Below are positions 2,022-22,484 of a stretch of DNA of 64,000 nucleotides, one piece after another. Below the pieces are notes generated by a model that saw only the letters and a program-made list of their open reading frames with translations, was not told where the DNA came from and did not search any database. A program made the position numbers and the translations under genes. Source of the stretch: Pseudomonas sp. LS44 (GTDB taxonomy: Bacteria > Pseudomonadota > Gammaproteobacteria > Pseudomonadales > Pseudomonadaceae); NCBI RefSeq assembly GCF_024730785.1, contig NZ_CP102830.1:2294001-2358000 (forward strand), given 5' to 3'. Position 1 is the first letter of the stretch; every line of letters starts with the position of its first letter.

Positions 2022-3482
2022 CTATTTCACTTCCTCGAAATCGTATGGCTTCCAGCGTCCGTCGAAGGCCGCTGCCTCGGGGCCATAGATACGGAAATAG
2101 GTAAACCAGCCCTTGCCCGACAAGGTCTTGATCCATTGTTTCTCGTGACCGGCCGGGGCGGTGGGGCCGAAGTACAGCTCGGTCACCCCTTCCTTGGCGA
2201 CACTCTGAAGTTCGATCATCGAGCGCAGGGCCGCATGGTTCTGCGGGTTTTCGATCTGCGAGCGAGTCTCGCTGTCGTACACCGTCACCGACCAAAACAG
2301 CTTGGCCGGCACCGGCTGGGGCACGCTCAGCTTGTAGGTCTTGCTGCCATCGAGGAAAGCGCCGTGATTGTCGCGACTGCCCAGCCAGTAGAGCGAGCCG
2401 GCGCCGGGGGCGCGGCGGAACATCGCCGGTGAGGCGATCATCGCCTGGTAGAACCACTTTTCCCGCGCTTCCAGATCGACGCGGCCATCGACTTCGAACT
2501 TGCCGTTCTCCGGGCGCAGCACTGCCCATTCCCACTGCCGGTCTGGCCAGGCCAGGCGGTCGGCGCGACGGTCGGCCAGCGACTGCACGCGCATTTGCGC
2601 GTTACCGCGCTGCGCGGCCTCCGTGAGGATGCGCTGCATGCGTGCGTCCGGGTTGAAGGGCTTGCCCTTGGCGATGCCCAGCGCGGCCAGCTCGCCGTAA
2701 TAGTTCTGGTACTCGGCGAAGGCCGGCTCGCTGTCGATCAACTCATGTAGCTCGCGCCAGTACTGCAGGGTGCTTTCCATCGGCACAGTGGAAATGTCGC
2801 TGGCCTTACCGGCCTGGTCCAGCCATTGCGGCGCCGGCCAGGCGGCGGCGTTGTCCAGCGGATGGATCTTGACCGATTTCATCAGCGCGATAGCCGCCTG
2901 CTGGCCGTCCTTGGGCAAGGCGCGCAGCATTAGAAGCAAGCGATTGGTGGTCGACTGGGCGGTGAAATAGCCCGCCGGCACCTCGCCCTGATAGCCCGGC
3001 GGCAGGAACAGGTACTTGCCGCCCTGGCCCTTGTCTGGGCCAGGTAGGCCAAGGTCGGCGACCCAGCGCTGGTTGAGGTCGTTGACCACGCTCATGATCG
3101 GTCCGACGGGCAACTCGACCACCACCGGGCCGGCGGACAGGTCGAGCATCGCGCCGGCGTAAGGCGTATCGGAGTTGGCAGTGAACACGCGTTTCTTGGG
3201 CGTGCCCTCGAGAATGGTGAATACCTTGTTGGGCACCTGACCCAAGGCCAGGTTGGATTTCCACAGATGCATCATCGCCACGTTGGGGTAGAAGAACCGA
3301 TAGGTCTGCAGGGCCCGGTTCAGATCAACGTCGTCGTATACGCGCTGCACGGTTTCGGCAGTTGGATAACCGTTCTCGAAGGCATAGGGTCCAGGGGCGT
3401 CCTGGGCCTGTACGGCCGCGGCCAGCGGAGCAAGGCACAACAAGATGGCAAGGCCGCGGGGTAGCGTTAGGGTGCGCGACAT
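2022..3482 (-). CDS. Exported DUF1254/DUF1214 family protein
   Basis: The chosen start gives MSRTLTLPRGLAILLCLAPL followed by AAAVQAQ, a clear Sec signal peptide, with AAGGAAA at a fitting distance upstream; an in-frame ATG 16 codons earlier lacks these features. The 486-residue product shows hallmarks of the family: the NSDTPYAGAMLDL block followed by a short strand, the G-KYLFLPPGYQGEVPAGY block, FWSVTVYDSETRS, and a C-terminal LYFGP...YFRIYGPE block. The biochemical role of DUF1254/DUF1214 proteins is not established; the signal peptide places it in the periplasm. It lies 56 bases after a paralogue (3539-4996), forming a tandem pair like the one at 47593-50378. Confidence 0.8.
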   Translation of the reverse strand: MSRTLTLPRGLAILLCLAPLAAAVQAQDAPGPYAFENGYPTAETVQRVYDDVDLNRALQTYRFFYPNVAMMHLWKSNLALGQVPNKVFTILEGTPKKRVFTANSDTPYAGAMLDLSAGPVVVELPVGPIMSVVNDLNQRWVADLGLPGPDKGQGGKYLFLPPGYQGEVPAGYFTAQSTTNRLLLMLRALPKDGQQAAIALMKSVKIHPLDNAAAWPAPQWLDQAGKASDISTVPMESTLQYWRELHELIDSEPAFAEYQNYYGELAALGIAKGKPFNPDARMQRILTEAAQRGNAQMRVQSLADRRADRLAWPDRQWEWAVLRPENGKFEVDGRVDLEAREKWFYQAMIASPAMFRRAPGAGSLYWLGSRDNHGAFLDGSKTYKLSVPQPVPAKLFWSVTVYDSETRSQIENPQNHAALRSMIELQSVAKEGVTELYFGPTAPAGHEKQWIKTLSGKGWFTYFRIYGPEAAAFDGRWKPYDFEEVK

Positions 3483-3538
3483 AGAGAGTTTCCTTGTGAT
3501 GATTCGATATACCTGGATGCTGCGAAGCAACGGCGAGA

Positions 3539-4996
3539 TCAGTCGAGCTGTTCGATATCGTTCAACACCCAGCTGCGCTCGGCCATGGCCTTGTCCGGAC
3601 CGTAGATGCGGAACAAGATGAAGAACGGCTGGCCCGCTTTGGTGCTGATCCAGTTGCTCTCATTCCCGGCTGGTGGCTTGGGTCCGAAGTACAGATCGAC
3701 GCTGCCGTCAGCGTTCTTCTTCATCTGCTGGTTGTAGGAGTCCAGCCCCACCACCTTGGCTTCACGGATGAAACCGGCCGTGTGCCCGTCGTAGGCGTCT
3801 ACCGCCCAGAAATCACGCGCCGGGGGGTTGGCCGGAATGGTCAGCCGGTAACTGTGGCTACCATCGAGCTGCTGGCCTTTATCGGTTTCGTAGCTCTTCA
3901 TGTATACATGCGGACCCGGCGGCACGATCGGCCCGAACATGGCGAACCAGGCGTAGGCGCGCTGATCGAGATGCATCTCCTGCGCTGGATCGATGAACGA
4001 CAATTTCGTCGCCATTGCCTTCGGTCCTGCCAGCGAGCGCCATTTGCGCTTGTCACCCCAGATCGCGATGCCCGACTTGGCATAGCCATCCATCATGTAG
4101 GCGTGCGCTTCCTCGATGCCACGCTGAAGCAGCGCCTGACGTTGCGCGTCCGGTTTGAAGCTCAGCGTCTTACCGATATCCAACGCACTCAGCTGGCCCA
4201 TGATGGCCAGGTCGCGCGCCTGCACCGGCTCTTCGGCGACCATCCGTGCCAGCGACTCGTAGAAGCTGGCGTCGTATTTGACGATGCCGTCGTAGACCTT
4301 GTCGGCCACGTCGATATAGCGATTGGCGGCCGGCGCCGCCGCTTTGGCCAGCGGATAGACCTTGAGAGTCTTCAGGTAGTCGACGCCACCGGCCAGATCC
4401 GCGTCGCTGGTGGTCTTGGTGATCACCCGTAACAGCGTGTAGTTGTTGACGGTACTGCTCGGGATCGCGATGTAGCCGGCCGGCACTTCGCCCTTGTAGC
4501 CCGGCGGCAGTACCAGATAACGGCCACCCTTGCCCTGATCTTCGCCGCGACTGCCGACGTTGAGCAGCGGAATGGTCCACGAATCGACCACGGCGCCGTA
4601 CAGGCCGGCGTTCTTGGTCGCCGGAATGTCGAGCACCACCGGGCCGTCTTTAACATTGACGAAGACCATCACGTAGATGGTCGAGTGGTTCGGCGTAGTG
4701 GTCTGGTTCTTCCAGTCCGACGGGCGCGACCAGTACATGACGTCGTTGTACTGCGCGCCGGCATCGCGGAAATAGGCCTGGCGCATGGCGTCGAAGTTGA
4801 CCAGTGGGATGCCCCAGACGGCCGCTTCGACGGCGCGGCGTTCGAGCATGCGGCTTTGCAGTTGTTCCGAGGTGAAGGACGTCTCGGCGCGCGCGGCGAG
4901 CGGCAGCGCGGCGCTGGCCAGACCGAGGCTTAACAGGCAGGCGGCGAACAGTCTCTTGCAACCCGCGGACAGAGTGGTAGCACAGCGTGTTTCCAT
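3539..4996 (-). CDS. Exported DUF1254/DUF1214 family protein, tandem paralogue
   Basis: The preferred start METRCATTL has AGAGAAC upstream; an alternative ATG 11 codons earlier (5029) has no visible ribosome binding site. A Sec signal peptide ends near ALPLAARAE. Family blocks seen are PNHSTIYVMVFVNV, G-RYLVLPPGYKGEVPAGY, FWAVDAYDGHTAGF, and LYFGPKPPAGNESNW with FFILFRIYGPDK at the C-terminus, which lie at the same places as in the downstream paralogue. The protein is about 485 residues, close to its partner. Function is unknown; a periplasmic or membrane-associated role is inferred. It lies downstream of the acyl-CoA ligase gene, separated by repeats. Confidence 0.8.
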   Translation of the reverse strand: METRCATTLSAGCKRLFAACLLSLGLASAALPLAARAETSFTSEQLQSRMLERRAVEAAVWGIPLVNFDAMRQAYFRDAGAQYNDVMYWSRPSDWKNQTTTPNHSTIYVMVFVNVKDGPVVLDIPATKNAGLYGAVVDSWTIPLLNVGSRGEDQGKGGRYLVLPPGYKGEVPAGYIAIPSSTVNNYTLLRVITKTTSDADLAGGVDYLKTLKVYPLAKAAAPAANRYIDVADKVYDGIVKYDASFYESLARMVAEEPVQARDLAIMGQLSALDIGKTLSFKPDAQRQALLQRGIEEAHAYMMDGYAKSGIAIWGDKRKWRSLAGPKAMATKLSFIDPAQEMHLDQRAYAWFAMFGPIVPPGPHVYMKSYETDKGQQLDGSHSYRLTIPANPPARDFWAVDAYDGHTAGFIREAKVVGLDSYNQQMKKNADGSVDLYFGPKPPAGNESNWISTKAGQPFFILFRIYGPDKAMAERSWVLNDIEQLD

Positions 4997-5064
4997 GGTT
5001 TCAGTTCTCTGCTGGTTATTGTTTTTCATGGCTCGCCGCGAAGTAGCGACGTGCCCGCAGGCTC

Positions 5065-5161: not shown

Positions 5162-6730
5162 TCAGGCCACGCCGCGTTTGCGACCTTCCCAGAACGGCGC
5201 GCGCAGGTCGGTTTTCAGCACCTTGCCGACACTGGACAGTGGCAACGTGTCGCGGAACTCGACGCTGCGCGGCACCTTGTAACCGGCGATGCGCTCGCGA
5301 CAATGGGAGATGATGTCCTCTTCGCTGACGCTGTGCTCCGGCTTGCGGATAAGCACCGCGTGCACCGTCTCGCCCCACTTATCGCAGGGAACGCCGATCA
5401 CCGCGGCTTGGGCGACGGCCGGATGGCTGGCGATGGCGCTCTCGACTTCGGCGGTGAAGATGTTCTCCCCGCCGCTAACGATCATGTCCTTGAGGCGGTC
5501 GCAGATGTAGATGAAGCCGTCCTCGTCCATGTAGCCGCCGTCGCCGGTGTGCATCCAACCACCACGCAGCGCTTCGGCGGTGGCTTCCGGCTTTTTCCAG
5601 TAGCCGAGCATGACGTTCGGCCCACGCACGAGAATCTCGCCGACGGTGCCGCGCGGCACTTCGCGGTCTTCGGCGTCGGCGACGCGCATTTCAATGCAGG
5701 TGATCGGCAAGCCGGCCGAGTACATCTTGCCGCTGCGCTGATGCGCCTCACAGTGATACTCGGCACCCAGGATGGACGCGCCAGGGGCCAGTTCGGTCAT
5801 GCCGTAGCCCTGGATGAACTTGGCCGCGGGGAAAGCCTGGCGAGCGCGGTCGAGCAACGCCGGGGAGATGGCCGAAGCGCCATAGGTGATTTCCCCGAGC
5901 GCGCTCAGATCGAGTTCGGCCGCAGCCGGATTGGCCTCGCGCCAGTCGATGAGCATCTGCAGCATGGTTGGCGCCAGCAAGGTGTTGCTGGGCCTCTCCT
6001 GACTGATCTGCTCGAGCACTTCCTGCGGCTTGAACGCAGGCAATACCACATGCACACCACCACTGATAAACAACCCGACCATCGACGACAGGTCGGCCAC
6101 ATGGAACATCGGCATCGCATGCAGATAGACGGTATGCGGACCGTAGCCGGTCTGGTTGATGGCGGCCAGGCCCGAGAAGCCCATGTTGTTGTGGCTGAGC
6201 ATTACCCCCTTGGGGAACCCGGTAGTGCCGCCGGTATAAAAGATCCCCAGCAGCGAATCGCCACCCCGGCGGGCGTCTTCCACCGGTTCGCTACCAGCGA
6301 GCAACGCTTCGTAACTGAGCATGCCCTCAGGGGTTTCACCGTCGCCTGCATAGATCACCAGGCGCAGGGTTTTCGCCGCCTCGATGACCTTGCCGGCCAG
6401 CCCGAGGAAGGCGTCGTCGACGATCAGCACGCTGGTTTCCGAATCGTCCAGCGAGTAGACGATCTCCGCCACGCTCCAGCGGATATTCACCGGGTTGAGC
6501 ACCGCATCCGCCCAGGGCACCGCCTGGTAGTACTCGATATAACGCTGCGAGTTGAGCGACAGCATCGCCACTCGCTCGCCACTGGTTACGCCCAGATTTT
6601 TCAGCGCGCCGGCCAGACGGGCGACGCGCTCACCGAACTCGGCATAGCTGACACTGCGACCCCGATAACGAATGGCTGTGGCATTCGGGCGGCTCTGAAT
6701 ATGACGGTGCAAACCTTGAGTGATGTACAT
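5162..6730 (-). CDS. Acyl-CoA ligase (AMP-forming, fatty-acid/aromatic acyl-CoA synthetase family)
   Basis: This enzyme family activates a carboxylic acid to its CoA thioester with ATP. The start at MYITQGLHR is chosen because GGAG sits 6 bases upstream; an ATG 11 codons earlier lacks a binding site. About 522 residues carry all core motifs: the AMP-binding loop YTGGTTGFPKGVML, GYGMTEL, GWMHTGDGGYMDEDG, the hinge DRLKDMIVSGGENI, and the C-terminal catalytic lysine region GKVLKTDLR. It is co-directional with the DUF2889 gene 60 bases upstream, so they may be co-transcribed. In an island full of acyl-CoA dehydrogenases and hydratases it is the likely entry step. The substrate cannot be read from the sequence. 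Confidence 0.88.
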   Translation of the reverse strand: MYITQGLHRHIQSRPNATAIRYRGRSVSYAEFGERVARLAGALKNLGVTSGERVAMLSLNSQRYIEYYQAVPWADAVLNPVNIRWSVAEIVYSLDDSETSVLIVDDAFLGLAGKVIEAAKTLRLVIYAGDGETPEGMLSYEALLAGSEPVEDARRGGDSLLGIFYTGGTTGFPKGVMLSHNNMGFSGLAAINQTGYGPHTVYLHAMPMFHVADLSSMVGLFISGGVHVVLPAFKPQEVLEQISQERPSNTLLAPTMLQMLIDWREANPAAAELDLSALGEITYGASAISPALLDRARQAFPAAKFIQGYGMTELAPGASILGAEYHCEAHQRSGKMYSAGLPITCIEMRVADAEDREVPRGTVGEILVRGPNVMLGYWKKPEATAEALRGGWMHTGDGGYMDEDGFIYICDRLKDMIVSGGENIFTAEVESAIASHPAVAQAAVIGVPCDKWGETVHAVLIRKPEHSVSEEDIISHCRERIAGYKVPRSVEFRDTLPLSSVGKVLKTDLRAPFWEGRKRGVA

Positions 6731-6790
6731 CGGAAACTCCAATATCTTGTTGTTTTTGGTCACTGGGTCGAGGTACGTCGCAGACTCAAG

Positions 6791-7444
6791 TCATGCAAAC
6801 GTGCCGGCTACGTCTCTTTGCGTGGTTCGCGCTATTTCCGTGCCGGTCATCAGGCGTACCGGCTCGCTTGCTACCTGGTGAGCATCTGGCCAGCGCATGC
6901 GTGCCGCTTCGCCGTCAGCCCGGTAGACCTGGCAGGTATCGATAACCCAGAGCTTCGGCGCGACATAGTCCGGATCACTGGCAGCACGCTCGCGCTCGGC
7001 GTCCTGGAGCAGATCGAAGGTGCTCTGATACAGCGTGGTAGCCATGGGGCCGAGCAATTCGGTGAGGTGCGTACAGCCCTTGGTGCCACCGACGCGCTGG
7101 GCGACCTGTTTCTTGAAGCCCGGGCCGATCTTCAGGCCGATCAGGCTGGCATAGATCGCCGCGACTCCTGGACAGAACGGTGACGGTGCGTCTTCGGTGA
7201 CGGCTTTGATGTCATGAATCACGAACTGCAAATCGACGGTCATCACCACGCGCATCCGATGCACCGGCTCACCGGCCAGGATCATCTTGTAGTAGGCGTC
7301 GTGATCGTGGTGCTTGGTGTCCAGCAAGCGCCCTTCGATATCGATCAAGCCGTCGCTGCGCAAAAAGCCGGTGCATTCGACCTGGCGGGTATGCAGTCGC
7401 TGCCGGGTCGAGGCAGCCGATACGTTTTCCTTCATTTCACTCAT
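6791..7444 (-). CDS. DUF2889 family protein
   Basis: The protein of about 217 residues matches the DUF2889 family by its ordered blocks: ECTGFLRSDGLIDIEGRLLD near the N-terminus, a PVHRMRVVMTVD segment, then SPFCPG and VGGTKGCTHLTELLGPM in the middle. The conserved Cys/His-rich GCTHL element and the several His and Asp residues (KHHDHDAY) would suit metal binding, but that is inference. There is no signal peptide in the chosen frame. Starts at 7444 (MSEMKEN) and 7435 (MKEN) are both possible. An intrinsic terminator lies only about 15 bases upstream of the start. The function is unknown; the neighbour is the acyl-CoA ligase. Confidence 0.7.
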   Translation of the reverse strand: MSEMKENVSAASTRQRLHTRQVECTGFLRSDGLIDIEGRLLDTKHHDHDAYYKMILAGEPVHRMRVVMTVDLQFVIHDIKAVTEDAPSPFCPGVAAIYASLIGLKIGPGFKKQVAQRVGGTKGCTHLTELLGPMATTLYQSTFDLLQDAERERAASDPDYVAPKLWVIDTCQVYRADGEAARMRWPDAHQVASEPVRLMTGTEIARTTQRDVAGTFA

Positions 7445-7458
7445 CTCGTACCACGTAT

Positions 7459-7504
7459 AAAAAAACGGCATTCGAACGGCAGGCAAGCCTGCCGGAGTGC
7501 CGTT
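7459..7504 (-). terminator. Nested intrinsic terminator just upstream of the DUF2889 start
   Basis: Read on the minus strand, an outer stem AACGGCA/TGCCGTT encloses a perfect inner stem CGGCAGGC/GCCTGCCG and is followed by seven T residues. The T-run ends about 14 bases before the ATG at 7444. It should stop transcripts coming from the acyl-CoA dehydrogenase, or act as an attenuator for the DUF2889-ligase unit. Confidence 0.75.
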
Positions 7505-7666: not shown

Positions 7667-8818
7667 TTACAGCGACCGACCGACCACCTCGCGCTGGATC
7701 TCGTTGGCGCCGCCATAGATACGCGCCACGCGAGAGTCGGAGAACATCCTCGCGATCGGGTACTCGTTCATGTAGCCGAAGCCGCCGAAGAACTGCAGGC
7801 AGCGGTCAACCACTTCCCCTTGGCGATCGGTCAGCCAGAACTTGCCCATCGAGGCCAGTGTGGTGTCCAGAGTGCCGTCCACCCAGCGTTGCACGATCAG
7901 GTCGGCGAAGGTCCGCGACGCGGTGACCGTGGCCTTGATCTCGGCCAACTGGAAGCGGGTGTTCTGGAAGTCGATGATCGCCTTGCCGAAGGCCTTGCGC
8001 TCCTTGGTGTACTCGACGGTCAGCGCCAGTGCGCGCTCCATCTGGGCAGCGGCACCGATGCCGATCTGCGCGCGCTCGTAGGGCAGTTGCTGCATCAGCT
8101 GGATGAAACCCTGACCCTCAACGCCACCGATCAGGCAGTCGGCCGACACTTCGCACTCCTCGAAGAACATTTCCGAGGTGTCCTGGCCCGGCAGGCCGAC
8201 CTTGTCCAGGCACTTGCCGCGCTGGAAGCCCGCGGTCTTGGTGTCGACGATGAACAACGAGATACCGCGCGAACCCTTGGCCTCCAGATCGGTCTTGGCG
8301 ATCACCACCACGATGTCACTGATCTGACCGTTGGTGATGAAGGTCTTCGAGCCGCTGATGACGTATTTGTCGCCCTTCTTCACCGCCCGAGTGCGCACAC
8401 CCTGCAGGTCGGAGCCGGTGCCCGGCTCGGTCATGGCGATCGAGGTGATGCACTCGCCGGAGGCGATCTTCGGCAGCCACTTGAGCTTCTGCTCTTCGGT
8501 ACCGCTGTCCAGGATGTAGTGGCCAACAATATGGCTGATCCCCAGACCCAGGCTCGTCACGCCGGCATAGGTCAGCTCCTCCAAGGTCACGGCATAGTGC
8601 GCCGGGGTGCCATCGGCGCCGCCGTACTCGGAGGGCATATCCGGCAGGATCATGCCCATCTCGCCGGCGGCCAGCCAGGCCGAACGGTCGGAGCGGTGCT
8701 GTTCGCGCCACTTGTCTTCGTGCGGCATCAGTTGCTCACGGACGAAGCGGCGAATGCTGTCGCGGAAGGCATCCAGGTCGGAGTCCATCCACGGGGAGCG
8801 ATAGTTTTCCAGTTGCAT
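7667..8818 (-). CDS. Acyl-CoA dehydrogenase, LCAD-like
   Basis: A FAD-dependent acyl-CoA dehydrogenase of 383 residues that would form the 2,3-double bond of an acyl-CoA. Visible motifs are the FAD/substrate loop IAMTEPGTGSDLQG, the tryptophan-replaced GSKTFITNGQ segment, and the ERKAFGK motif. The usual C-terminal catalytic glutamate position of short/medium-chain enzymes reads IYGGANEIQ (Gly instead of Glu). A glutamate is present instead in LPYER at about residue 248, the place used by long-chain and isovaleryl-type enzymes. This suits long or branched substrates. The SDR gene lies 18 bases upstream on the same strand, so the two are in one operon. Confidence 0.9.
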   Translation of the reverse strand: MQLENYRSPWMDSDLDAFRDSIRRFVREQLMPHEDKWREQHRSDRSAWLAAGEMGMILPDMPSEYGGADGTPAHYAVTLEELTYAGVTSLGLGISHIVGHYILDSGTEEQKLKWLPKIASGECITSIAMTEPGTGSDLQGVRTRAVKKGDKYVISGSKTFITNGQISDIVVVIAKTDLEAKGSRGISLFIVDTKTAGFQRGKCLDKVGLPGQDTSEMFFEECEVSADCLIGGVEGQGFIQLMQQLPYERAQIGIGAAAQMERALALTVEYTKERKAFGKAIIDFQNTRFQLAEIKATVTASRTFADLIVQRWVDGTLDTTLASMGKFWLTDRQGEVVDRCLQFFGGFGYMNEYPIARMFSDSRVARIYGGANEIQREVVGRSL

Positions 8819-8836: not shown

Positions 8837-9667
8837 TTAAACGTTGCCGTAACCGCCGCCGCAGACGATGGTCTGGCCGGACACGTAGTTGGCTTCCGGC
8901 AGGCACAGCATGACCACCGCACCGGCTGCTTCTTCCGGAGTACCTGGGCGACCCAGTGGGATTATCTGGCTGGCGCCGTCGACCAAAGACTGCTGCACGC
9001 CGACCTTGATCTCGCGACCCTCGATGTTCACGGTCTTGCTCTCGTCGCCGGCCAGCGCCTGAGTCAGACGGGTTTCGATGAAGCCGAAGGCCACGGCGTT
9101 GACGTTGACCTTGAAGCGGCCCCACTCCTTGGAGAGGGTCTTGGTCAGGCCGAGGATGCCGGCTTTGGCCGAGGAGTAGTTGCTCTGGCCGGGGTTGCCG
9201 CCAGCGGCGCCGGAGGAGATGTTCACCACTTTGCGGAACACTTCGCGGCCTTCGGCGGCTTCTTTCTTGGCAGCGGCGCTGATGATCGGCTGAGCGGCGC
9301 GCAGGATGCGGAACGGCGCGGTCAGGTGGCAATCCATGATGGCGTACCACTGCTCGTCGCTCATCTTCTGGATCACGTTGTCCCAGGTGAAGCCGGCGTT
9401 GTTGATGATGATGTCGATGGCGCCGTAAGCCGTGACCGCGGTTTGCACCAGGCGCTCGGCGAAATCAACAGCGGTAACGCTGCCGACGCAGGCCACGGCT
9501 TCGCCGCCCGCAGCACGGATCTCGGCGACCACTTCTTCAGCCGGGCCGGCGTCCAGGTCGTTGACCACGACTTTGGCGCCGTAGGCAGCCAGTTGCAGGG
9601 CGACTTCACGACCAATGCCACGGCCAGAGCCGGTTACCAGAGCGACTTTACCTTCGAGCTTTTTCAT
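8837..9667 (-). CDS. Short-chain dehydrogenase, probable (3R)-hydroxyacyl-CoA dehydrogenase
   Basis: A classical NAD(P)-dependent SDR of 276 residues, with the cofactor loop VTGSGRGIGR, the NNAG motif, catalytic Ser in NISSG and the YxxxK pair in SNYSSAKAG. An acidic residue after the second strand (VVNDLD) points to NAD. Length and the insertion before NISSG (AAAKKEAAEGREVF) resemble the dehydrogenase unit of MFE-2-type proteins. Two MaoC genes lie directly upstream (33- and 12-base gaps), so SDR plus MaoC would carry out the same pair of steps that MFE-2 performs as a single chain. That role is inferred from context; the fold is certain. Confidence 0.88.
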   Translation of the reverse strand: MKKLEGKVALVTGSGRGIGREVALQLAAYGAKVVVNDLDAGPAEEVVAEIRAAGGEAVACVGSVTAVDFAERLVQTAVTAYGAIDIIINNAGFTWDNVIQKMSDEQWYAIMDCHLTAPFRILRAAQPIISAAAKKEAAEGREVFRKVVNISSGAAGGNPGQSNYSSAKAGILGLTKTLSKEWGRFKVNVNAVAFGFIETRLTQALAGDESKTVNIEGREIKVGVQQSLVDGASQIIPLGRPGTPEEAAGAVVMLCLPEANYVSGQTIVCGGGYGNV

Positions 9668-9699: not shown

Positions 9700-10119
9700 T
9701 CAGGCCAGGGCGACCACGGCTTCGCCGGCGAGCTTTTCTTCGCCGTACTGATTGCCGCAGCGGATCGCCAGACGCACACGCTTCTCGCCGTTTTCTTCGA
9801 ACTTCTCGGTGACTTTGCCGGTGCAGGTCGGGATGTGGCCGAGCTGGGTGATGCCGGTGAAACGGATCGACAGGCTGCGCAATTGGCTCTGTGGCACCCA
9901 GCGGGTCAGCAGGCGGCCGAGGTAGGCGGCAGACAACATGCCGTGGGCGAACACGTCGGGCATCCGCGCCTTGCGGGCGAAGTCGATGTCGATGTGGATC
10001 GGGTTGTGGTCACCCGAGGCGCCGGCATACAGGGCCAGGGTGGTGCGATTGATCGGTTGCAGCTTGAGCAGCGGGATCTCGTCGCCAACCTGGATATCGG
10101 AGTATTGAACGGTAGTCAT
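9700..10119 (-). CDS. MaoC-like enoyl-CoA hydratase, catalytic subunit
   Basis: The 139-residue hot-dog protein carries the hydratase-2 motif YAGASGDHNPIHID with the catalytic Asp and His, followed by AHGML, as in R-specific enoyl-CoA hydratases. These enzymes add water to a 2-enoyl-CoA to give (3R)-hydroxyacyl-CoA. A second hot-dog gene lies 12 bases upstream (10132-10569). Pairs of small MaoC proteins commonly form heteromers in which only one chain holds the Asp/His dyad. This one is the catalytic chain. The adjoining SDR is the expected next enzyme. Confidence 0.88.
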   Translation of the reverse strand: MTTVQYSDIQVGDEIPLLKLQPINRTTLALYAGASGDHNPIHIDIDFARKARMPDVFAHGMLSAAYLGRLLTRWVPQSQLRSLSIRFTGITQLGHIPTCTGKVTEKFEENGEKRVRLAIRCGNQYGEEKLAGEAVVALA

Positions 10120-12351: not shown

Positions 12352-12402
12352 TTTGCTATCTCCTTTTTGTGAGTCTGCAAAGTGGTCAATGAAGCCGTAA
12401 GT

Positions 12403-14851: not shown

Positions 14852-15607
14852 ATGAAGCTTTTGCACAACAAAGTCGCGATCGTCACCGGCGGCGCCTCCG
14901 GAATCGGTCGCGCCACCGCTCTGCTGTTTGCCCGTGAAGGTGCGCGGGTCGCCGTGGCAGACATGAGCGAGACCGCAGGCCAGGCCATGGTCGAGGAGAT
15001 CCGCCAGGCTGGCGGCGAGGCGTTTTTCCAGCGTGTCGATGTGCGCCGCGACGCGGATTGCGCCGCATTGGTCGAAGCGACGCTGGGGCACTACGGCCAG
15101 CTCGACATCGCCTTCAACAATGCCGGCATCGGCGGCGCACCATCGCTCACTCAGGACCAGGGCCTGGAGCAGTGGCGCCAGGTTCTGGATGTGAACCTGA
15201 CCGGGGTTTTCAACTGCATGGTGCATGAACTGCGCGCCATGAAAGAGCGCGGCGGCTCGATCATCAATACCGCCTCGATCATGGGCCTGCAGGGCACCGC
15301 AGGATCAGCCGCCTACTCGGCTTCCAAACACGGTGTGATCGGCCTGACCCGCAGCGCCGCGCTGGAATACGGCAAGTACGGCGTGCGCATCAATGCGCTG
15401 TGCCCCGGTTTCGTGGCGACGCCGATGCTCGTCGGCGAGACCAGTCTCTTAGATCCCAAGGGCCTGGACGCCCTGGCCCGCTCCGTGCCGATGCGCCGCC
15501 TGGCTGAGCCGGCCGAGCAAGCGGAAATGGTCCTGTGGCTGGCCTCGGACAAGTCTTCCTACGCCACTGGCGGGCATTTCGTCGTCGATGGCGGCGTGCT
15601 CGCGTAA
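14852..15607 (+). CDS. Short-chain dehydrogenase/reductase, second of a tandem pair
   Basis: Exactly the same length (251 residues) as the preceding SDR and clearly its duplicate: IVTGGASGIGRA, NNAGIGGAPSLTQDQGL, NLTGVFNCMVHEL, NTASIMG, YSASKHGVIGLTRSAALEYG and INALCPGFVATPM all line up. Differences cluster after the PG motif, in the substrate-covering loop (VGETSLLDPKGLDALARS against VGPDSGFNDKMINAGVKG). That is where SDR substrate choice is usually set. The pair has therefore probably diverged for related substrates or stereoisomers. No strong ribosome binding site is visible (GAGAGTGAG upstream). Confidence 0.88.
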   Translation: MKLLHNKVAIVTGGASGIGRATALLFAREGARVAVADMSETAGQAMVEEIRQAGGEAFFQRVDVRRDADCAALVEATLGHYGQLDIAFNNAGIGGAPSLTQDQGLEQWRQVLDVNLTGVFNCMVHELRAMKERGGSIINTASIMGLQGTAGSAAYSASKHGVIGLTRSAALEYGKYGVRINALCPGFVATPMLVGETSLLDPKGLDALARSVPMRRLAEPAEQAEMVLWLASDKSSYATGGHFVVDGGVLA

Positions 15608-15649: not shown

Positions 15650-16438
15650 ATGAACTACGAAGCCTACAAATTCATCACCTTCGCCCAAGACAACGGCGTG
15701 CTGACCGTACGCCTGAATCGTCCCGAAACGTTCAACGCGATCGATGCCGCGCTGCACACTGAACTCTCGACCGTATTCGCCGACATCGCCGCCGACCGTA
15801 GCGTGCATGCGGTGGTGCTGACCGGCGAAGGCCGCGGTTTTTGCGGCGGCGGCGACCTGGCGTGGATGCGCGACATCGATCAGGAAGGCCTCAACCAGCT
15901 GTTCCGCGAAGCGCGCAAGATCATCATCGACATGCTCGAACTGCCGCAGCCGCTCATCGCCGCGGTCAACGGCCACGCCGCCGGCCTGGGCGCGACCCTG
16001 GCACTGTTCTGCGACATGGTCTTCGCCGCCGAGTCGGCGAAGATTTCCGACCCGCATGTACGGGTCGGGGTCGCCGCCGGTGATGGCGGTGCCGCGATCT
16101 GGCCGCTGTTGGTCGGCCCGGCACGCGCCAAGCAGTACCTGTTCACCGGCGACGCCATGACCGCCACCGAAGCCGAGCGCATCGGCCTGATCAACCAGGT
16201 GGTCGCCAATGGCGAGGCCCTGGCCACCGCCACGGCCATGGCCCGCCGCATGGCCGACGGCCCGCGCCTGGCGATCCTGGCGAGCAAGGCCAGCGTGAAC
16301 AAGATCGTGCGCGACACGGTGAACCTGGTCCTCGACACCTCGCTGGCGCTGGAGAAGGAAAACTTCTCCAGCGCCGACCACAAGGAAGCCCTCAAGGCCT
16401 TCGCCGAGAAGCGCACGCCGGTGTTCCGCGGCGTCTGA
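15650..16438 (+). CDS. Enoyl-CoA hydratase/isomerase
   Basis: A 262-residue crotonase-fold protein with LNRPETFNAIDAA at the N-terminus, the oxyanion-hole segment GRGFCGGGDLAWMRD and the second one in NGHAAGLGATLALFCDMV. The usual catalytic acid near the second loop is not obvious: the segment after FAAESAKISDPHVRVG reads VAAGDGGAAIWP, with Asp where many hydratases have Glu. It could be a hydratase or another crotonase-type enzyme. CTGGAG 9 bases before the ATG is a fair binding site. It lies between the SDR pair and the acyl-CoA dehydrogenase pair in the same direction. Confidence 0.85.
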   Translation: MNYEAYKFITFAQDNGVLTVRLNRPETFNAIDAALHTELSTVFADIAADRSVHAVVLTGEGRGFCGGGDLAWMRDIDQEGLNQLFREARKIIIDMLELPQPLIAAVNGHAAGLGATLALFCDMVFAAESAKISDPHVRVGVAAGDGGAAIWPLLVGPARAKQYLFTGDAMTATEAERIGLINQVVANGEALATATAMARRMADGPRLAILASKASVNKIVRDTVNLVLDTSLALEKENFSSADHKEALKAFAEKRTPVFRGV

Positions 16439-16568: not shown

Positions 16569-17765
16569 ATGGACATCCGTTACACCCCCGCTGAACTCGC
16601 CTTCCAGGACGAGGTGCGCACGTTTCTAAGTGACAAGCTGCCGGCCGATTTCGCTGCGCGCGGTCGCCACGGAAAACGCTTCGACAAACAAGACCAGGTC
16701 ACCTGGATGCGCCTGCTCAATGAGCGTGGCTGGCTGGCCGCCAGTTGGCCGGTGGAGCTCGGTGGCACCGGCTGGAGTGTGGTCGAGAAGCACATCTTCG
16801 AGGAAGAGTGCGCAATTGCCGGCGCCACGGGGATCCTTCCGTTCGGCGTCAACATGGTCGGGCCGGTCATCATCAAGTTCGGCACGCCCGCGCAGAAGGC
16901 ATATTTCCTGCCGCGCATCCTCAATTGCGAAGACTGGTGGTGCCAGGGCTATTCCGAGCCGGGCGCCGGCTCCGACCTGGCTTCGCTGAAAACCCGCGCG
17001 GTACGTGACGGCGACCATTACGTGGTCAACGGCCAGAAGATCTGGACCACCCTGGCGCACTACGCCGACTGGATGTTCTGCCTGGTGCGCACCGATCCCG
17101 AGGCCCAGCAGCAGCGCGGCATCAGCTTCCTGCTGATCGACATGAAGACCCCGGGCATTACTGTGCGGCCGATCATCACCCTGGACGGTGAACACGAAGT
17201 CAACGAGGTGTTTTTCGACAACGTGCGCGTGCCGGTGGAAAACCTGGTCGGCGAGGAGAACAAGGGCTGGACCTGCGCCAAGTACCTGCTCACCCACGAA
17301 CGCACCGGCATCGCCGGCATCGGCCAGGCCAAGGCGCTGTTGGCCAAGCTGAAACGGGTCGCCAGCCAAGAGCTGCGCAATGGCCAGCCGCTGATCGACG
17401 ACCCGCTGTTCCGCGCGCAGATCGCCGACGTGGAAATGCAATTGATGGCCGCCGAGATGAGCAACCTGCGCACCCTCGCCGCGACTCGCGACGGCGGCGT
17501 GCCGGGCGCGGAAAGCTCAATCCTGAAGATCAAGGGCACCGAGCTGCGCCAGCAGATCACCTACCTGATCAACAAGGCGGTGGGCACCTACTCCCTGCCG
17601 GTCATCGAAGAGGAGCTGGGCTACGGCGATTGCGCGGAACTGCTGCATACCGAGTACAGCAGTGCCGCCAGCAACCAGTACCTGGACATGCGCAAAGCCT
17701 CGATCTACGGCGGATCGAACGAAATTCAGAAGAACATCATCGCCAAGATGATTCTCGAGCTGTAA
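16569..17765 (+). CDS. Acyl-CoA dehydrogenase, catalytic subunit of a probable heteromer
   Basis: A 398-residue acyl-CoA dehydrogenase, with TTGGAGGACTTCCTCG directly upstream of its ATG. Visible are YSEPGAGSDLASLKTRA (FAD/substrate loop), NGQKIWTTLAHYADW, a Glu in THERTGIAG (about residue 244, the LCAD/IVD position) and IYGGSNEIQKNI at the C-terminus. The next gene, 12 bases downstream, is a second dehydrogenase that lacks both possible catalytic glutamates. The arrangement matches the alpha2-beta2 acyl-CoA dehydrogenases known from steroid side-chain degradation (mycobacterial ChsE-type). The heteromer is inferred from gene order and residues. Confidence 0.9.
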   Translation: MDIRYTPAELAFQDEVRTFLSDKLPADFAARGRHGKRFDKQDQVTWMRLLNERGWLAASWPVELGGTGWSVVEKHIFEEECAIAGATGILPFGVNMVGPVIIKFGTPAQKAYFLPRILNCEDWWCQGYSEPGAGSDLASLKTRAVRDGDHYVVNGQKIWTTLAHYADWMFCLVRTDPEAQQQRGISFLLIDMKTPGITVRPIITLDGEHEVNEVFFDNVRVPVENLVGEENKGWTCAKYLLTHERTGIAGIGQAKALLAKLKRVASQELRNGQPLIDDPLFRAQIADVEMQLMAAEMSNLRTLAATRDGGVPGAESSILKIKGTELRQQITYLINKAVGTYSLPVIEEELGYGDCAELLHTEYSSAASNQYLDMRKASIYGGSNEIQKNIIAKMILEL

Positions 17766-17777: not shown

Positions 17778-18911
17778 ATGGATTTCAAACTGACAGAAGA
17801 GCAGCAAATGCTGCAGGACACCGCGGCGCGCCTGGTGCGCGACGCTTATGGTTTCGAGCAGCGCGAGCAGTTCGCCAAGAGCGAGCCGGGCTTCAGCCGC
17901 GAATTTTGGCAACAGCTCGGCGAGCTAGGCCTGACCTCTGTGCCATTCGCCGAAGAGTTCGGCGGCTTCGGCGGCAGCGGCGTGGACACCATGCTGATCG
18001 CCACCGAACTGGGCCGTGGCCTGTGCCTGGAACCCTACCTGTATTCGGTGATCTTCGCCGGCGGGCTGATCAACCAGCTGGGCAGCACGGCGCAGAAGAA
18101 CGAACTGCTGCCGCACGTGGCCAGCGCCCAGCTGCAGCTGGGCGTGGCCCTCGACGAGCCGCAGAGCCATTACCAGCTGCATGACGTACAGACCCGCGCC
18201 GAAGCGGTAGAAAGTGGCTGGCGACTCAGCGGGCGTAAATCCGTGGTAGTCGCCGGGCAGAGCGCCGGGCTGATCCTCGTGTCGGCCCGCACCAGCGGTG
18301 AAGCACACGACGAGTCCGGCATCAGCTTGTTCCTGATCGACCCGACGAGCGCGGGGGTAAAGCGCCGTGCCTTCCCGACCCTGGATGGCCGCAAGGCCTG
18401 TGAGTTGTACTTGGACAATGCCAGCGGCACCTTACTCGGCGAGCCGGGTCAGGCCCTGGCTGCGCTGCGTTACCAGCAGGGCCGCGCCATCGCTGCGCAG
18501 TGCGCCGAAGCGGTCGGCAGCATGGAGGCGGCCTGCCAACTGACCCTCGACTACCTGAAGACGCGCCAGCAGTTCGGCCAGGTGATCGGCAGGTTCCAGG
18601 CGCTGCAGCACCGCATGGTCGACATGCGCATCGAACTGGACCAGGCCACCTCGATGGCCATCCTCGCCGCCTGCGTGGCTGACCAGCCGGACAGTGCTGA
18701 GCGCAGCCGTACCTTGGCTGCCGCCAAGTACATCATCAGCCGCGCCGCGCGCTTCGTCGCCGACCAGGGCATCCAACTGCACGGTGGCATCGGCCTGACC
18801 TGGGAATACGTGCTGTCGCACCACGCCAAGCACCTGCTGATGGTCGCCCGCCAGTTCGGCGATGACGATCATCACCTCAAGGCCTTCAGCCAGCTGATGG
18901 ACGTGGCCTGA
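17778..18911 (+). CDS. Acyl-CoA dehydrogenase-like subunit without catalytic glutamate
   Basis: A 377-residue protein with the acyl-CoA dehydrogenase fold: EEFGGFGGSGVD, LDYLKTRQQFGQVIGRFQ, and QLHGGIGLTWEY at the C-terminus. In its partner a Glu stands in THER; here the matching place reads RYQQGR, and the C-terminal Y-x-G-x-x-E-I motif is absent (LSHHAKHLLM). It is therefore unlikely to be active alone. The DEPQSHYQLHD segment replaces the usual substrate loop. The 12-base gap to the preceding gene suggests matched expression of two subunits of one enzyme. TAAGGGGTCTACACC precedes the ATG. Confidence 0.87.
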   Translation: MDFKLTEEQQMLQDTAARLVRDAYGFEQREQFAKSEPGFSREFWQQLGELGLTSVPFAEEFGGFGGSGVDTMLIATELGRGLCLEPYLYSVIFAGGLINQLGSTAQKNELLPHVASAQLQLGVALDEPQSHYQLHDVQTRAEAVESGWRLSGRKSVVVAGQSAGLILVSARTSGEAHDESGISLFLIDPTSAGVKRRAFPTLDGRKACELYLDNASGTLLGEPGQALAALRYQQGRAIAAQCAEAVGSMEAACQLTLDYLKTRQQFGQVIGRFQALQHRMVDMRIELDQATSMAILAACVADQPDSAERSRTLAAAKYIISRAARFVADQGIQLHGGIGLTWEYVLSHHAKHLLMVARQFGDDDHHLKAFSQLMDVA

Positions 18912-19049: not shown

Positions 19050-20147
19050 ATGCTGCAAGGCATCAAGATTGTAGAAATCTGCGGTATTGGCCCTGGGCCA
19101 TTCTCGGCCATGCACCTGGCCGATCTGGGCGCCGAAGTGATCGCCGTCGAGCGCGATACCGGCGCCGCCGCCCACGCCAATTTGCTTAACCGCGGCAAGC
19201 GTTCGGTGGTCGCCGACCTGAAGAGCGCCGAAGGCCGCGAACTGGTACTGCGCCTGATCGAAGACGCCGACGCGCTGATCGAAGGCATGCGTCCGGGCGT
19301 GATGGAACGCCTCGGTCTGGGCCCGGAAGTGTGCCAGGCACGCAATCCGAAGCTGGTGTACGGGCGCATGACCGGCTGGGGCCAGTCCGGGCCAATGGCT
19401 CAGGCCGCCGGCCACGACAACAACTATGTCTCGCTGTCCGGCGCGCTGTTCCACAACGGCGCCCCTGAAACCCCGCCCTCCTCAGCCTTCGCCGCTTTGG
19501 GCGATATCGGAGGCGGCGCGCAGTACCTGACCATCGGCTTGCTCTCCGGCATCCTCAATGCGCGGGCCACCGGCAAGGGCGCGGTGGTCGATGCGGCCAT
19601 CCTCGACGGTTCGGCGCACATGCTCCAGCTCATGCTGGCGAGCCGCAACATCGGCTGGATGACCGACGAGCGCGGCCAGAACATTCACGACAGCTCGCCG
19701 TTCTACGCCACCTATCGCTGCGCCGATGGCGACTTCGTCACCCTCGGTTCGCTTGAGCCGCAGTTCTATGCGCTGCTGCTGGAAAAACTCGGCCTGCAGA
19801 ACGATGCGCGCTTCGCCAAGCAGTGGGATCGCAGCCGCTGGGCAGAGCTGCATCAGTTCTTCACCGAGCTGTTCGCCAGCCAATCGCGCCAGCACTGGTG
19901 CGCGCTGTTCGAAGGGACCGACGTGTGCTTCGCACCAGTGCTCGGCCCGCGTGAGGCCGCGCAGCATCCGCATAACGTCGCTCGCGGTGTCTATTTCGAG
20001 CGCGATGGCCTGCTGCAAACCCGCGTGGCACCCCGCTTCGATGGTGAGGTGGTCACCCCCGGCGCGATTCCGGCCGCGGGCGAACATACCGCGCAGATCT
20101 TGGCCGCACTGAGCGACCCGGCCAGCTCGGTATGGCAGTCGGTCTAA
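19050..20147 (+). CDS. Alpha-methylacyl-CoA racemase-like enzyme (family III CoA transferase fold)
   Basis: A 365-residue CaiB/BaiF-fold protein. It carries the two residues that mark racemases in this family: His122 in AGHDNNYVSLSG and Asp152 in ALGDIGGGAQYL, matching the His/Asp pair of known alpha-methylacyl-CoA racemases. Other family segments are EGMRPGVMERLGLG and LVYGRMTGWGQSGP. The expected reaction is the change of (2R)- to (2S)-methylacyl-CoA so that dehydrogenases can act on branched or sterol-type side chains. A plain CoA transferase is less likely because the transferase Asp context (GD-xxG with acyl-transfer loop) is not seen. Repeats flank it on both sides. Confidence 0.85.
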   Translation: MLQGIKIVEICGIGPGPFSAMHLADLGAEVIAVERDTGAAAHANLLNRGKRSVVADLKSAEGRELVLRLIEDADALIEGMRPGVMERLGLGPEVCQARNPKLVYGRMTGWGQSGPMAQAAGHDNNYVSLSGALFHNGAPETPPSSAFAALGDIGGGAQYLTIGLLSGILNARATGKGAVVDAAILDGSAHMLQLMLASRNIGWMTDERGQNIHDSSPFYATYRCADGDFVTLGSLEPQFYALLLEKLGLQNDARFAKQWDRSRWAELHQFFTELFASQSRQHWCALFEGTDVCFAPVLGPREAAQHPHNVARGVYFERDGLLQTRVAPRFDGEVVTPGAIPAAGEHTAQILAALSDPASSVWQSV

Positions 20148-20341: not shown

Positions 20342-21490
20342 ATGAGCCAAACCTACACCTCCCCCTGGATGAATCCCGAGCTGGAAGTCGTCCGCGATAA
20401 CGTGCGGCGCTTCTTCGCCGAGGAAGTCGTGCCGCACCAGGAACGCTGGTACAAGCAGCACCACGTCGACCGCGAGCTCTGGTACAAGGCCGGCGAACTC
20501 GGCCTGCTGGCCCTGGACATGCCGGAGGAGTACGGCGGTAGCGGCGGCAACTTCGCCCACCTCGCGGTGTTCTTCGAGGAGCAGGCGGCGGTGGGTGACT
20601 GGGGCTTCGGCGTGCAGGTGCACCACATCGTTTCCCACTACATCCTCAATCACGGCACCGAGGAGCAGAAGCACAAGTACCTGCCGAAGATGGCCTCGGG
20701 CGAGATGATCGGTTCCATCGCCATGACCGAGCCAGGTACCGGCTCCGACCTGCAGGGCATCCGCACCCGCGCCGTACGCGAAGGCGACCAGTACGTGATC
20801 AACGGCGCGAAGACGTTCATTTCCAACGGTTCGATGGCCGACCTGGTGGTGGTGGTGACCAAAACCGAGCCGAATGCCGGCAGCAAGGGTATGTCGCTGA
20901 TCATCGTGGAAACCAAGGATTGCGCCGGTTTCAGTGTCGGCCGGGTACTGGAAAAGCTCGGCCAGCACAACGCCGACACCTCCGAACTGGCCTTCCAGGA
21001 CGTACGCGTGCCGGCGGCCAACCTGCTCGGTGGCGTGGAAGGCCAGGGCATGCGCCAGTTGATGTCCGACCTGGCCTATGAACGTGTCGGCTGCTCCGTA
21101 GGCTCCGCCGCCTCGATCGAACGCGCGGTGCGCCTGACCTTGGAATACACCCGCGAGCGCAAGGCCTTCGGCAAGCCACTGCTGGATATGCAAAACACCC
21201 GCTTCAAGCTGGCCGAATGCGATACCCAAGCGACTCTCGCCCGCGTGTTCATCGACAACTGCATCCAGCGCATGCTCGACGGCAGCATGGACCCGGTAAC
21301 CGCGTCGAAGGCCAAGCTGTGGATGACCGAGACCCAGGGCAAGGTTATCGACGAGTGCTTACAGCTGTTCGGCGGCTACGGCTACATGATGGAGTACCCG
21401 ATCGCCCGCATGTATGCCGACGCCCGCGTGCAGCGCATCTACGCCGGCACCAGCGAGATCATGAAAGAGATCATCGCCCGCTCGTTCTAA
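20342..21490 (+). CDS. Acyl-CoA dehydrogenase, LCAD-like
   Basis: A 382-residue acyl-CoA dehydrogenase, similar throughout to the one at 7667-8818 (SPWMNPELEVVRDNVRRF against SPWMDSDLDAFRDSIRRF). Motifs are IAMTEPGTGSDLQGIRTRA, GAKTFISNGSMADL and TRERKAFGKPL. The catalytic Glu is predicted in LAYER near residue 247, because the C-terminal motif reads IYAGTSEI with Ala where short-chain enzymes have Glu. This is the long-chain/isovaleryl arrangement. GTCAGGAGATACCGCA gives a clear ribosome binding site. The two LCAD-like copies, one in each arm, may serve different rounds of chain shortening. Confidence 0.9.
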   Translation: MSQTYTSPWMNPELEVVRDNVRRFFAEEVVPHQERWYKQHHVDRELWYKAGELGLLALDMPEEYGGSGGNFAHLAVFFEEQAAVGDWGFGVQVHHIVSHYILNHGTEEQKHKYLPKMASGEMIGSIAMTEPGTGSDLQGIRTRAVREGDQYVINGAKTFISNGSMADLVVVVTKTEPNAGSKGMSLIIVETKDCAGFSVGRVLEKLGQHNADTSELAFQDVRVPAANLLGGVEGQGMRQLMSDLAYERVGCSVGSAASIERAVRLTLEYTRERKAFGKPLLDMQNTRFKLAECDTQATLARVFIDNCIQRMLDGSMDPVTASKAKLWMTETQGKVIDECLQLFGGYGYMMEYPIARMYADARVQRIYAGTSEIMKEIIARSF

Positions 21491-21522
21491 TGATCAGGCC
21501 TGCTGAGGTTTGAACTTTCAGT

Positions 21523-21641
21523 CGTAGGGCGGGTTAGCCGCGTAGCGGCGTAACCCACCATGGATGTCGGCAGACATCCCTGTGGCCGGTCGGTGGGTTA
21601 CGGCCTGCGGCCAATCAAGACATCAAAGGGCCGGATCAATA
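21523..21641. repeat. REPIN-like element, subtype A, with degraded right arm
   Basis: GTAGGGCGGGTTAGCCGCGT, then ATGGATGTCGGCAGACATCC and GGCCGGTCGGTGGGTTACGG, match the copies at 10627 and 12403. The final CTAACCCACCCTACGA arm is missing. The flank ATCAAGACATCAAAGGGCCG and GATCAATAA matches the 10627 copy. Confidence 0.82.
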
Positions 21642-21655
21642 AGCCGAGTTCGACC

Positions 21656-21675
21656 CTCTCCCAGGAATGGGAGAG
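21656..21675 (+). promoter_or_regulatory. Leader hairpin before the enoyl-CoA hydratase
   Basis: CTCTCCCA and TGGGAGAG form an 8-bp stem with a GGAA loop. It ends 8 bases before the AGGAG binding site (21683-21687) of the TTG-started gene. The stem belongs to the CTCTCCC-type hairpins also seen at 33172-33255. It could slow ribosome loading, or be a chance repeat insertion. Confidence 0.45.
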
Positions 21676-21695
21676 ACACACCAGGAGCAGCCATC

Positions 21696-22484
21696 TTGAA
21701 TTCCGAATCCCCGGTTCTGTACAGCGTCGAAGGCGGCATCGGTCGCCTCACTCTCAACCGCCCGGCGCAGGGCAATGCCATCAGCTTGGCCTTCAGCGCG
21801 GCGTTTGCCGAGGCTGTCGAACAACTCGTGCGCGCCAAACCGCGCGTGGTGGTGCTGAGCGCCCGCGGCCCGCGCTTCTGTGCGGGCGGCGACATCGCCG
21901 AGCTCGTCGAGAACCGCGAGCGTCTGTCGGCGCACATCGGTGCCATGCTGGTGCTGCTCAATCCGGCGATGAAAAAACTCGCCGCCCTACCGGCTCCGGT
22001 AATCAGCGTCGTCCACGGCGGGGTCGGCGGCGCCGGTATCGCCCTGGCCTGCTGCGCCGATTTCGTCCTGGCCAGCAACACCGCACGGGTACGTGGCGGC
22101 TACTCGGCCATTGGCTTGACCCCGGACATCGGCGCCTCCTATTACGCCACCCAGCGCATCGGCGCGGCCAAGGCCAAACGTCTGTTCATCCTCAACGAAA
22201 TGTTCGAGGCCGAGCAGTGCCTGGCCATGGGCCTGTTCGACGAACTGCATACGCCGGACAAACTGACCCATGCAGCCGAAACACTCGCGCATACCCTGGC
22301 CGCCGGCGCCACGCAGGCTTTCGCGCGGATCAAGCGACTGTGCGACGAAGCCAACAGTCGCGATGTGGCGACCCATCTGGACGTGGAGAGCGCCGGCCTG
22401 CTGGCCAGCACGCAGAGCGAGGATGCTCGGGAGGGCGTGCAGGCATTCATCGACAAGCGTCCGCCTTGCTTCAGCGGCCGCTAA
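21696..22484 (+). CDS. Enoyl-CoA hydratase/isomerase, TTG start
   Basis: The family-like sequence begins at NSESPVLYSVEGGIGRLTLN and no ATG fits. A TTG at 21696 is preceded by AGGAG at 8 bases, giving 262 residues; the open frame runs further upstream through repeat DNA and is not coding there. Crotonase motifs are LNRPAQGNAIS, the oxyanion segment GPRFCAGGDIAELV and VVHGGVGGAGIALACCADFV. GYSAIGLTPDIGASYY replaces the usual acid-bearing segment, with Asp in place of the second Glu. It ends the plus arm; after it comes about 850 bases of gene debris. Confidence 0.84.
   Translation: MNSESPVLYSVEGGIGRLTLNRPAQGNAISLAFSAAFAEAVEQLVRAKPRVVVLSARGPRFCAGGDIAELVENRERLSAHIGAMLVLLNPAMKKLAALPAPVISVVHGGVGGAGIALACCADFVLASNTARVRGGYSAIGLTPDIGASYYATQRIGAAKAKRLFILNEMFEAEQCLAMGLFDELHTPDKLTHAAETLAHTLAAGATQAFARIKRLCDEANSRDVATHLDVESAGLLASTQSEDAREGVQAFIDKRPPCFSGR

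Follow-up and report, generated by a model that had tools for sequence, protein, structure and literature searches.

A Pseudomonas gene cluster for branched-chain acyl-CoA beta-oxidation: a predicted counterpart of the peroxisomal pathway, possibly acting on steroid side chains

Cholesterol side-chain degradation in Actinobacteria involves the ChsE heteromers, FadA5, Ltp2 and the cytochrome P450 CYP125. The human enzymes AMACR, D-bifunctional protein and SCPx carry out the shortening of both C27 bile acids and pristanic acid, deficiencies impair both processes, and the 25R forms require the racemase first, as described in the sections of PMC4920857 that were available. Proteobacterial steroid degraders are described, in the accessible part of PMC4810484, as incapable of using sterols that bear an alkyl side chain. 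Here we analyse a window of 64,000 bases (G000:C1:2294001-2358000) from the single-contig chromosome of Pseudomonas sp. LS44 (4,461,138 bases), in which 18 genes spanning positions 2022-22484 (window coordinates) form a coherent catabolic unit, a variation on the known branched-chain and steroid side-chain pathways. A predicted role in the beta-oxidation of 2-methyl-branched acyl-coenzyme A (acyl-CoA) esters is well supported by its gene content. We further propose that the cluster corresponds, in bacteria, to the peroxisomal pathway of branched-chain beta-oxidation and that its substrate is most likely the C8 side chain, methyl-branched, of C27 steroid acids, a tentative reading to which we give slightly less than an even chance.

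Gene classes were assigned with Pfam and NCBIfam profiles, and the products were further compared with PDB sequences. The genes lie in two divergent arms. From the centre outward, the minus arm carries the SCP-x thiolase, a sulfatase, FAS1-DH and MaoC proteins, a short-chain dehydrogenase/reductase (SDR), an acyl-CoA dehydrogenase, a DUF2889 protein, a ligase and two DUF1254/DUF1214 proteins; the plus arm carries tandem SDRs, a crotonase, two adjacent acyl-CoA dehydrogenases, a racemase, another acyl-CoA dehydrogenase and a second crotonase. Every enzyme class listed in the initial annotation was found by the profiles. That annotation counted a single SDR where there are three, one on the minus and two on the plus arm, and did not mention the DUF2889 protein or the two DUF1254/DUF1214 proteins. 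The features are as follows.

2022-3530, minus: DUF1254/DUF1214 paralog a (Pfam), with a signal-peptide-like N-terminus by eye; 68% relative at locus L115 of genome G015
3539-5029, minus: DUF1254/DUF1214 paralog b (Pfam); PDB relative VPA0735, 178 bits; 65% relative at L115 of G015
5162-6763, minus: AMP-forming acyl-CoA ligase, FadD type (Pfam; NCBIfam NF004837, 526.5 bits, cut-off 476)
6791-7486, minus: DUF2889 protein (Pfam; model m9a325c62c109), start likely near 7441
7667-8818, minus: acyl-CoA dehydrogenase with the helix-G glutamate (Pfam, NCBIfam, residue check)
8837-9667, minus: SDR, 3-hydroxyacyl-CoA dehydrogenase or FabG-like (Pfam, PDB comparison)
9700-10119, minus: MaoC-type hydratase subunit (Pfam)
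10132-10569, minus: FAS1-DH-type subunit, likely the MaoC partner (Pfam; also a weak match to the N-terminal hydratase-2 part of MFE-2)
10780-12456, minus: formylglycine-type sulfatase, CTAGR (Pfam); signal-peptide-like stretch inside the open reading frame (ORF), the actual start thus possibly lying further downstream
12540-13727, minus: SCP2-type (SCP-x) thiolase with NNNC, HDCF and GHPLGATG (NCBIfam, PDB, motifs)
13728-14049, no strand: intergenic region separating the divergent arms (sequence)
14050-14805, plus: SDR, first of the tandem pair (Pfam)
14852-15607, plus: SDR, second of the tandem pair (Pfam, NCBIfam)
15650-16438, plus: enoyl-CoA hydratase/isomerase (crotonase) 1 (Pfam, NCBIfam)
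16569-17765, plus: ChsE4-like acyl-CoA dehydrogenase, probably the catalytic member of a heteromeric pair (PDB, helix-G glutamate)
17778-18911, plus: acyl-CoA dehydrogenase without the helix-G glutamate, probable partner subunit (PDB, NCBIfam, residue check)
19050-20147, plus: predicted alpha-methylacyl-CoA racemase (match to MCR, 1x74)
20342-21490, plus: acyl-CoA dehydrogenase with the helix-G glutamate (Pfam, residue check)
21564-22484, plus: enoyl-CoA hydratase/isomerase 2 (Pfam); domain from near 21730, true start probably near 21700

The thiolase (12540-13727) matched a vertebrate SCP2-thiolase type 1, presumably the zebrafish protein, with 424 bits over positions 3-395, the next distinct molecule in PDB scoring 195; its match to FadA5 was weak (32 bits). 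It keeps the nucleophilic cysteine (NNNC) together with HDCF and GHPLGATG. According to the part of PMC12329534 that was available, HDCF is found in SCP2 thiolases, while YDCY (Sal) and YDHF mark aldolases. That the gene encodes a true SCP2-type thiolase, which may act on 2-methyl-3-oxoacyl-CoA, is well supported. The same holds for the predicted alpha-methylacyl-CoA racemase: the product of 19050-20147 scored 342 bits against the mycobacterial MCR (1x74) and at most 140 against family III CoA-transferases, and it retains the His and Asp that had been noticed at the outset, AGHD and GDIGGG both aligning to MCR; we take these residues to be the catalytic pair. Next to the racemase lie two of the four acyl-CoA dehydrogenases of the cluster, probably forming a heteromer of a catalytic (16569-17765) and a partner (17778-18911) subunit. 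The helix-G glutamate is present in three of the four and missing from the partner subunit. The top PDB matches of the putative catalytic subunit were 4x28_A (212 bits) and Tcur3483 (199 bits), the next scoring 136; we take 4x28_A (ChsE4) and Tcur3483 to be cholesterol side-chain enzymes. Among PDB entries, the minus-arm SDR (8837-9667) reached its best total score, 227 bits over two domains (105 and 125 bits), with the (3R)-hydroxyacyl-CoA dehydrogenase 2et6. All together, the MCR-like racemase, the SCP2-type thiolase and the MaoC/FAS1-DH pair bear out the branched-chain function proposed initially.

Ring-cleaving genes had been reported as absent, which is true of the window; a KshA gene, an HsaC-like gene and a Shy/Sal-like pair are nevertheless encoded elsewhere on the chromosome, the ring genes lying 1.65 Mb away. 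The KshA gene (chromosome positions 3954224-3954826) scored 223 bits against a cut-off of 23.3, and around it and to its right are found DUF1302, DUF1329, MMPL, SDR and Oxidored_FMN proteins. The ring locus also contains an extradiol dioxygenase that scores best with the HsaC family, two crotonases above their cut-offs, two CoA-transferase proteins, a nitronate-monooxygenase-type protein and an alpha/beta hydrolase. At L097:15596-17760, in the same region, a MaoC protein with ChsH2-type domains adjoins a YDCY thiolase-like protein, an arrangement that matches the Shy/Sal layout. No cytochrome P450 (PF00067) match was obtained at E <=0.001 in the whole LS44 genome, and the side chain would thus have to arrive already oxidised. 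For the same reason we rejected cholesterol use initiated by a P450 of the CYP125 or CYP142 type.

The LS44 genome is rich in related genes. Of 29 SCP-x candidates 12 were scored, and at least nine of them are copies at 61-100% identity, which likely serve several substrates. There are nine family III CoA-transferase/racemase genes, at least four of them racemase-like at E 1e-80 (13 of 16 candidates scored). Directly left of the window, in G000:C1:2274001-2294000, a sister cluster (L092:7914-14364) carries relatives of the SCP-x (79%), FAS1-DH (76%), MaoC (71%), dehydrogenase (87%), DUF2889 (51%) and ligase (67%) genes, along with DUF1302 and a MalT/LuxR-type regulator. At the compared loci the ORFs were called by a greedy picker that misplaces starts and can merge or miss genes; at L092 a single ORF spans the dehydrogenase and probably masks the SDR, and at L115 no FAS1-DH ORF was listed. 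DUF1302 and DUF1329 adjoin several of the sister clusters; in the part of PMC10866462 consulted they are proposed to take part in substrate transport in P. putida. Elsewhere in LS44, a closely similar three-gene stretch occurs at L112:767-4981 and L095:4257-8470, hinting at a duplication; by eye its products resemble an ABC transporter ATPase, a large permease and a lipoprotein.

A second line of evidence comes from another Pseudomonas genome, G015, in which an orthologous cluster lies 84 kb from KshA. Three SCP-x hits are spread across 2921064-3052931 (132 kb) of a 5.82-Mb contig, with KshA between them at 2966826; a second KshA is found at 2693737. Eleven of the cluster genes are kept at locus L115 at 53-90% identity: SDR (73%), SCP-x (82%), MaoC (90%), SDR (88%), dehydrogenase (72%), ligase (72%), the two DUF1254/DUF1214 proteins, racemase (74%), DUF2889 (53%) and a further dehydrogenase (56%); a crotonase at 36% is also present. 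No relative of the cluster sulfatase (10780-12456) is among the genes listed for L115. The ring locus has its counterpart at L119, with KshA at 71%, five more genes at 84-92% and two other matches at 30% and 60%. A steroid-type side chain, one of several substrates considered initially beside an isoprenoid or another branched lipid, is strengthened by the ChsE4-like subunit, the ring genes in the genome and the proximity of the G015 cluster to KshA.

The distribution of these genes was surveyed in a single draw of 149 genomes of the genus, with chosen cut-offs of 1e-90 for SCP-x and 1e-80 for the racemase; at most 12 or 13 candidates were scored per genome, so that copy numbers are lower bounds, and all co-occurrence tests ignore kinship. 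Of these genomes, 21 had strong KshA (>200 bits) and 35 had some KshA_C match, 14 carried SCP-x and 11 the racemase. LS44 left aside, strong KshA occurred in 6 of 13 SCP-x carriers (expected 1.8, P=0.0027) and in 7 of 10 racemase carriers (P=2.7e-5). When any KshA_C match was counted, the figures became 9 of 13 (P=2.5e-4) and 7 of 10 (P=0.0014), respectively.

The best solved match of the cluster sulfatase was an arylsulfatase (176 bits), and CTAGR was found in 94 of 96 sulfatase sequences, the other two having STAGR. We compared 80 loci holding its best relatives, with fetched flanks of up to 10 kb and cluster genes counted at >=60% identity. At least two cluster genes stood beside the sulfatase in 14 of the 20 best loci (L009-L028, all Pseudomonas) and in none of the remaining 60. 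KshA above 200 bits was present in 11 of 15 named sulfatase-carrying genomes (loci L009-L035 represent 17 distinct genomes of Pseudomonas or Pseudomonadaceae, 15 of which were included), as compared with 21 of 149 across the genus; without LS44, the numbers were 10 of 14 versus 19 of 147 (P=5e-6). A second CTAGR sulfatase lies in the window, to the right of the cluster:

32108-41440, plus: second sulfatase gene linked to MoxR, DUF58-type and vWA-type genes (Pfam for MoxR and the sulfatase, by eye for DUF58 and vWA); 50-82% identity to G015

This sulfatase (39857-41440) is encoded downstream of the MoxR-type module, and in G015 an 82% relative and the module adjoin the orthologous cluster. A sulfated substrate, which the initial annotation had suggested from the presence of a sulfatase, may fairly be supposed; it gains weight from the conserved neighbourhoods at the best loci and from the linkage of the second sulfatase in G015.

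Strong DUF2889 hits co-occur with the racemase across the genus. The gene was detected in 15 of the 149 genomes, strongly (>100 bits) in seven and weakly (31.8-39.7 bits, above the Pfam cut-off) in eight; the racemase was present in all seven strong carriers and in none of the eight weak ones (7 of 15 overall). Without LS44, the racemase occurred in 6 of 6 strong carriers (P=1.6e-8), or in 6 of 14 with the weak ones included (P=3.9e-5). Each of the five DUF2889 genes of LS44 is found within 5.6 kb of an SCP-x copy. An alignment of 80 DUF2889 sequences contains invariant Cys and His residues (C24, C91, C124, H126 and C171), a pattern that might point to a metal or redox site. In the literature searched, DUF2889 appeared only in PMC4520260 and PMC7253759, neither of which, in the parts available, concerns this pathway; its co-occurrence with the racemase gives this domain of unknown function a candidate pathway. 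Three genomes (G046, G128 and G129; loci L123, L124 and L125) share a separate conserved module with a racemase at 56-57%, a divergent DUF2889 at 39-42% and DUF1302/DUF1329, and with no close SCP-x alongside.

The term island, used for the locus initially, fits insofar as the genes form a cluster. We rejected a mobile island: the GC content of the cluster (0.61-0.65) falls inside the spread seen in the remainder of the window (0.56-0.69), neither a tRNA nor an Rfam match occurs near 2022-22484, and the four tRNAs of the window are at 54-58 kb, away from the cluster, although integrases were not searched for. Further right in the window, 23766-29502 encodes an AsnC/Lrp-type regulator, a branched-chain 2-oxo acid dehydrogenase E1 alpha and then bkd-operon-like genes, which look ordinary. 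At 47593-50378, two proteins beside an AraC-type regulator are 32-33% identical to a DUF1254/1214-like protein at L116:10649-12019 of G015, near the orthologous cluster.

From these data we infer a substrate, an order of steps and a sulfated form. The Shy/Sal-like pair and the ring genes being on the same chromosome, the simplest scheme would be a single round from C27 to C24 that releases propionyl-CoA, followed by the known route. A sulfatase would free the compound outside the cytoplasm, the ligase would form the acyl-CoA and the racemase would set the configuration of the 2-methyl group. An acyl-CoA dehydrogenase would then yield the enoyl-CoA, to be hydrated by the MaoC/FAS1-DH pair; an SDR would oxidise the product and the SCP-x thiolase would cleave it to propionyl-CoA and a C24-oyl-CoA, which may pass to the Shy/Sal-like proteins and to the ring-cleaving enzymes encoded elsewhere on the chromosome. 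A bolder version, which we consider speculative and rather unlikely, is that the lineage mineralises sulfated C27 bile alcohols or bile acids (for example cyprinol sulfate from fish) without any P450: a sulfatase and alcohol oxidation would come first, then the racemase and a peroxisome-type round with release of propionyl-CoA, and finally Shy/Sal and ring cleavage. DUF2889 would then belong to the racemase pathway as a dedicated component that has no name yet.

Several observations weigh against C27 steroid acids as the substrate. At the enzyme level, the NCBIfam best names of the paired dehydrogenases are pimeloyl-CoA dehydrogenase subunits (pimC for 16569-17765, pimD for 17778-18911), both below cut-off; the steroid match of the partner subunit is tied with a long-chain acyl-CoA dehydrogenase (Tcur3481 109 bits, LCAD 107, 4x28_D 84); the best single-stretch match of the minus-arm SDR is the FabG 4rzh (154 bits); and the HsaC match of the ring locus, at 279 bits, is under its curated cut-off of 450. 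The available part of PMC4810484 states that no Proteobacteria tested metabolised cholesterol. Across the genus, 7 of the 14 SCP-x genomes are without strong KshA: G051, G063 and G086 have weak KshA_C matches only, and G089 (with at least four SCP-x hits), G113, G123 and G131 have none; in addition, the co-occurrence tests include no correction for descent. Sulfatase-linked clusters also occur where KshA is lacking, in P. schmalbachii and in strain PDM18. The main rival draws on part of this list: it keeps the same enzymology and replaces the steroid by an acyclic isoprenoid or another 2-methyl-branched acid of the pristanic type. The four SCP-x genomes without any KshA_C match, the clusters of P. 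schmalbachii and the many SCP-x copies of LS44, which point to several substrates, would all suit it, as would the service of AMACR, D-bifunctional protein and SCPx to pristanic acid (PMC4920857, in the sections available). Against this stand the dehydrogenase subunit nearest to steroid enzymes, the enrichment of KshA among carriers and its linkage in G015, and we regard this rival as possible, with appreciably less probability than the C27 steroid acid proposal.

The other explanations appear less probable still. An ordinary C24 bile acid side chain of the cholate type would account for the Shy/Sal-like genes in the genome; yet the known route for the C5 side chain releases acetyl-CoA via the aldolase Sal (as described in the accessible parts of PMC8399759 and PMC12329534), should by our reckoning need neither racemase nor thiolase, and does not fit an SCP-x protein bearing the thiolase motif HDCF, which makes this substrate improbable. 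We judge it just as improbable that the genes serve to degrade detergents such as branched alkyl sulfates once the sulfate has been removed. The presence of one sulfatase in the cluster and another near it, and a 73% sulfatase homolog in P. laurylsulfatiphila, would agree with such a role, but the genomes with close sulfatases mostly carry KshA (the 11 of 15 above), P. laurylsulfatiphila included, and its sulfatase locus (L029) has no cluster gene, only a ligase at 31%. Biosynthesis of a methyl-branched lipid, suggested by the resemblance of the MaoC pair to HadA/HadB, is very hard to sustain: the matches to these NCBIfam models are far below their cut-offs, and four acyl-CoA dehydrogenases and a thiolase indicate catabolism.

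We retain C27 steroid acids, tentatively, as the most likely substrates, and the cluster probably helps the cell to use steroid-like compounds. The ring genes, the at least nine SCP-x copies, the nine racemase/CoA-transferase family genes and the lack of a P450 match lead us to predict a route, so far unrecognised, for the use of steroids whose C27 side chain is already oxidised on arrival. No title or abstract retrieved for combinations of SCP-x, sulfatase, racemase and MaoC dealt with this cluster, and no paper was found that joins sulfatase with cyprinol and bile, or DUF1254 with DUF1214.

When set beside the described systems, the locus shares something with each of them. With the proteobacterial degradation of bile acid side chains it has in common the Shy/Sal-like pair, located on the LS44 chromosome outside the window; the cluster itself differs by its HDCF thiolase and its racemase, and a DUF35 match was obtained in none of its 18 genes. 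With the actinobacterial cholesterol route it shares a dehydrogenase subunit whose closest matches are ChsE4 and Tcur3483, whereas LS44 is without a P450 match and the thiolase is of the SCP2 type, with a weak match to FadA5. Its likeness to vertebrate peroxisomal beta-oxidation (AMACR, D-bifunctional protein/MFE-2, SCPx) lies in the racemase and the SCP2-type thiolase, both by direct match, and in a hydratase pair and SDR of compatible type. In contrast to the peroxisomal system, the bacterial functions are encoded by separate genes, with no SCP2 domain reported by Pfam on the thiolase; the cluster adds a sulfatase, DUF2889 and the DUF1254/DUF1214 proteins, and it has acyl-CoA dehydrogenases in place of the acyl-CoA oxidases that peroxisomes use.

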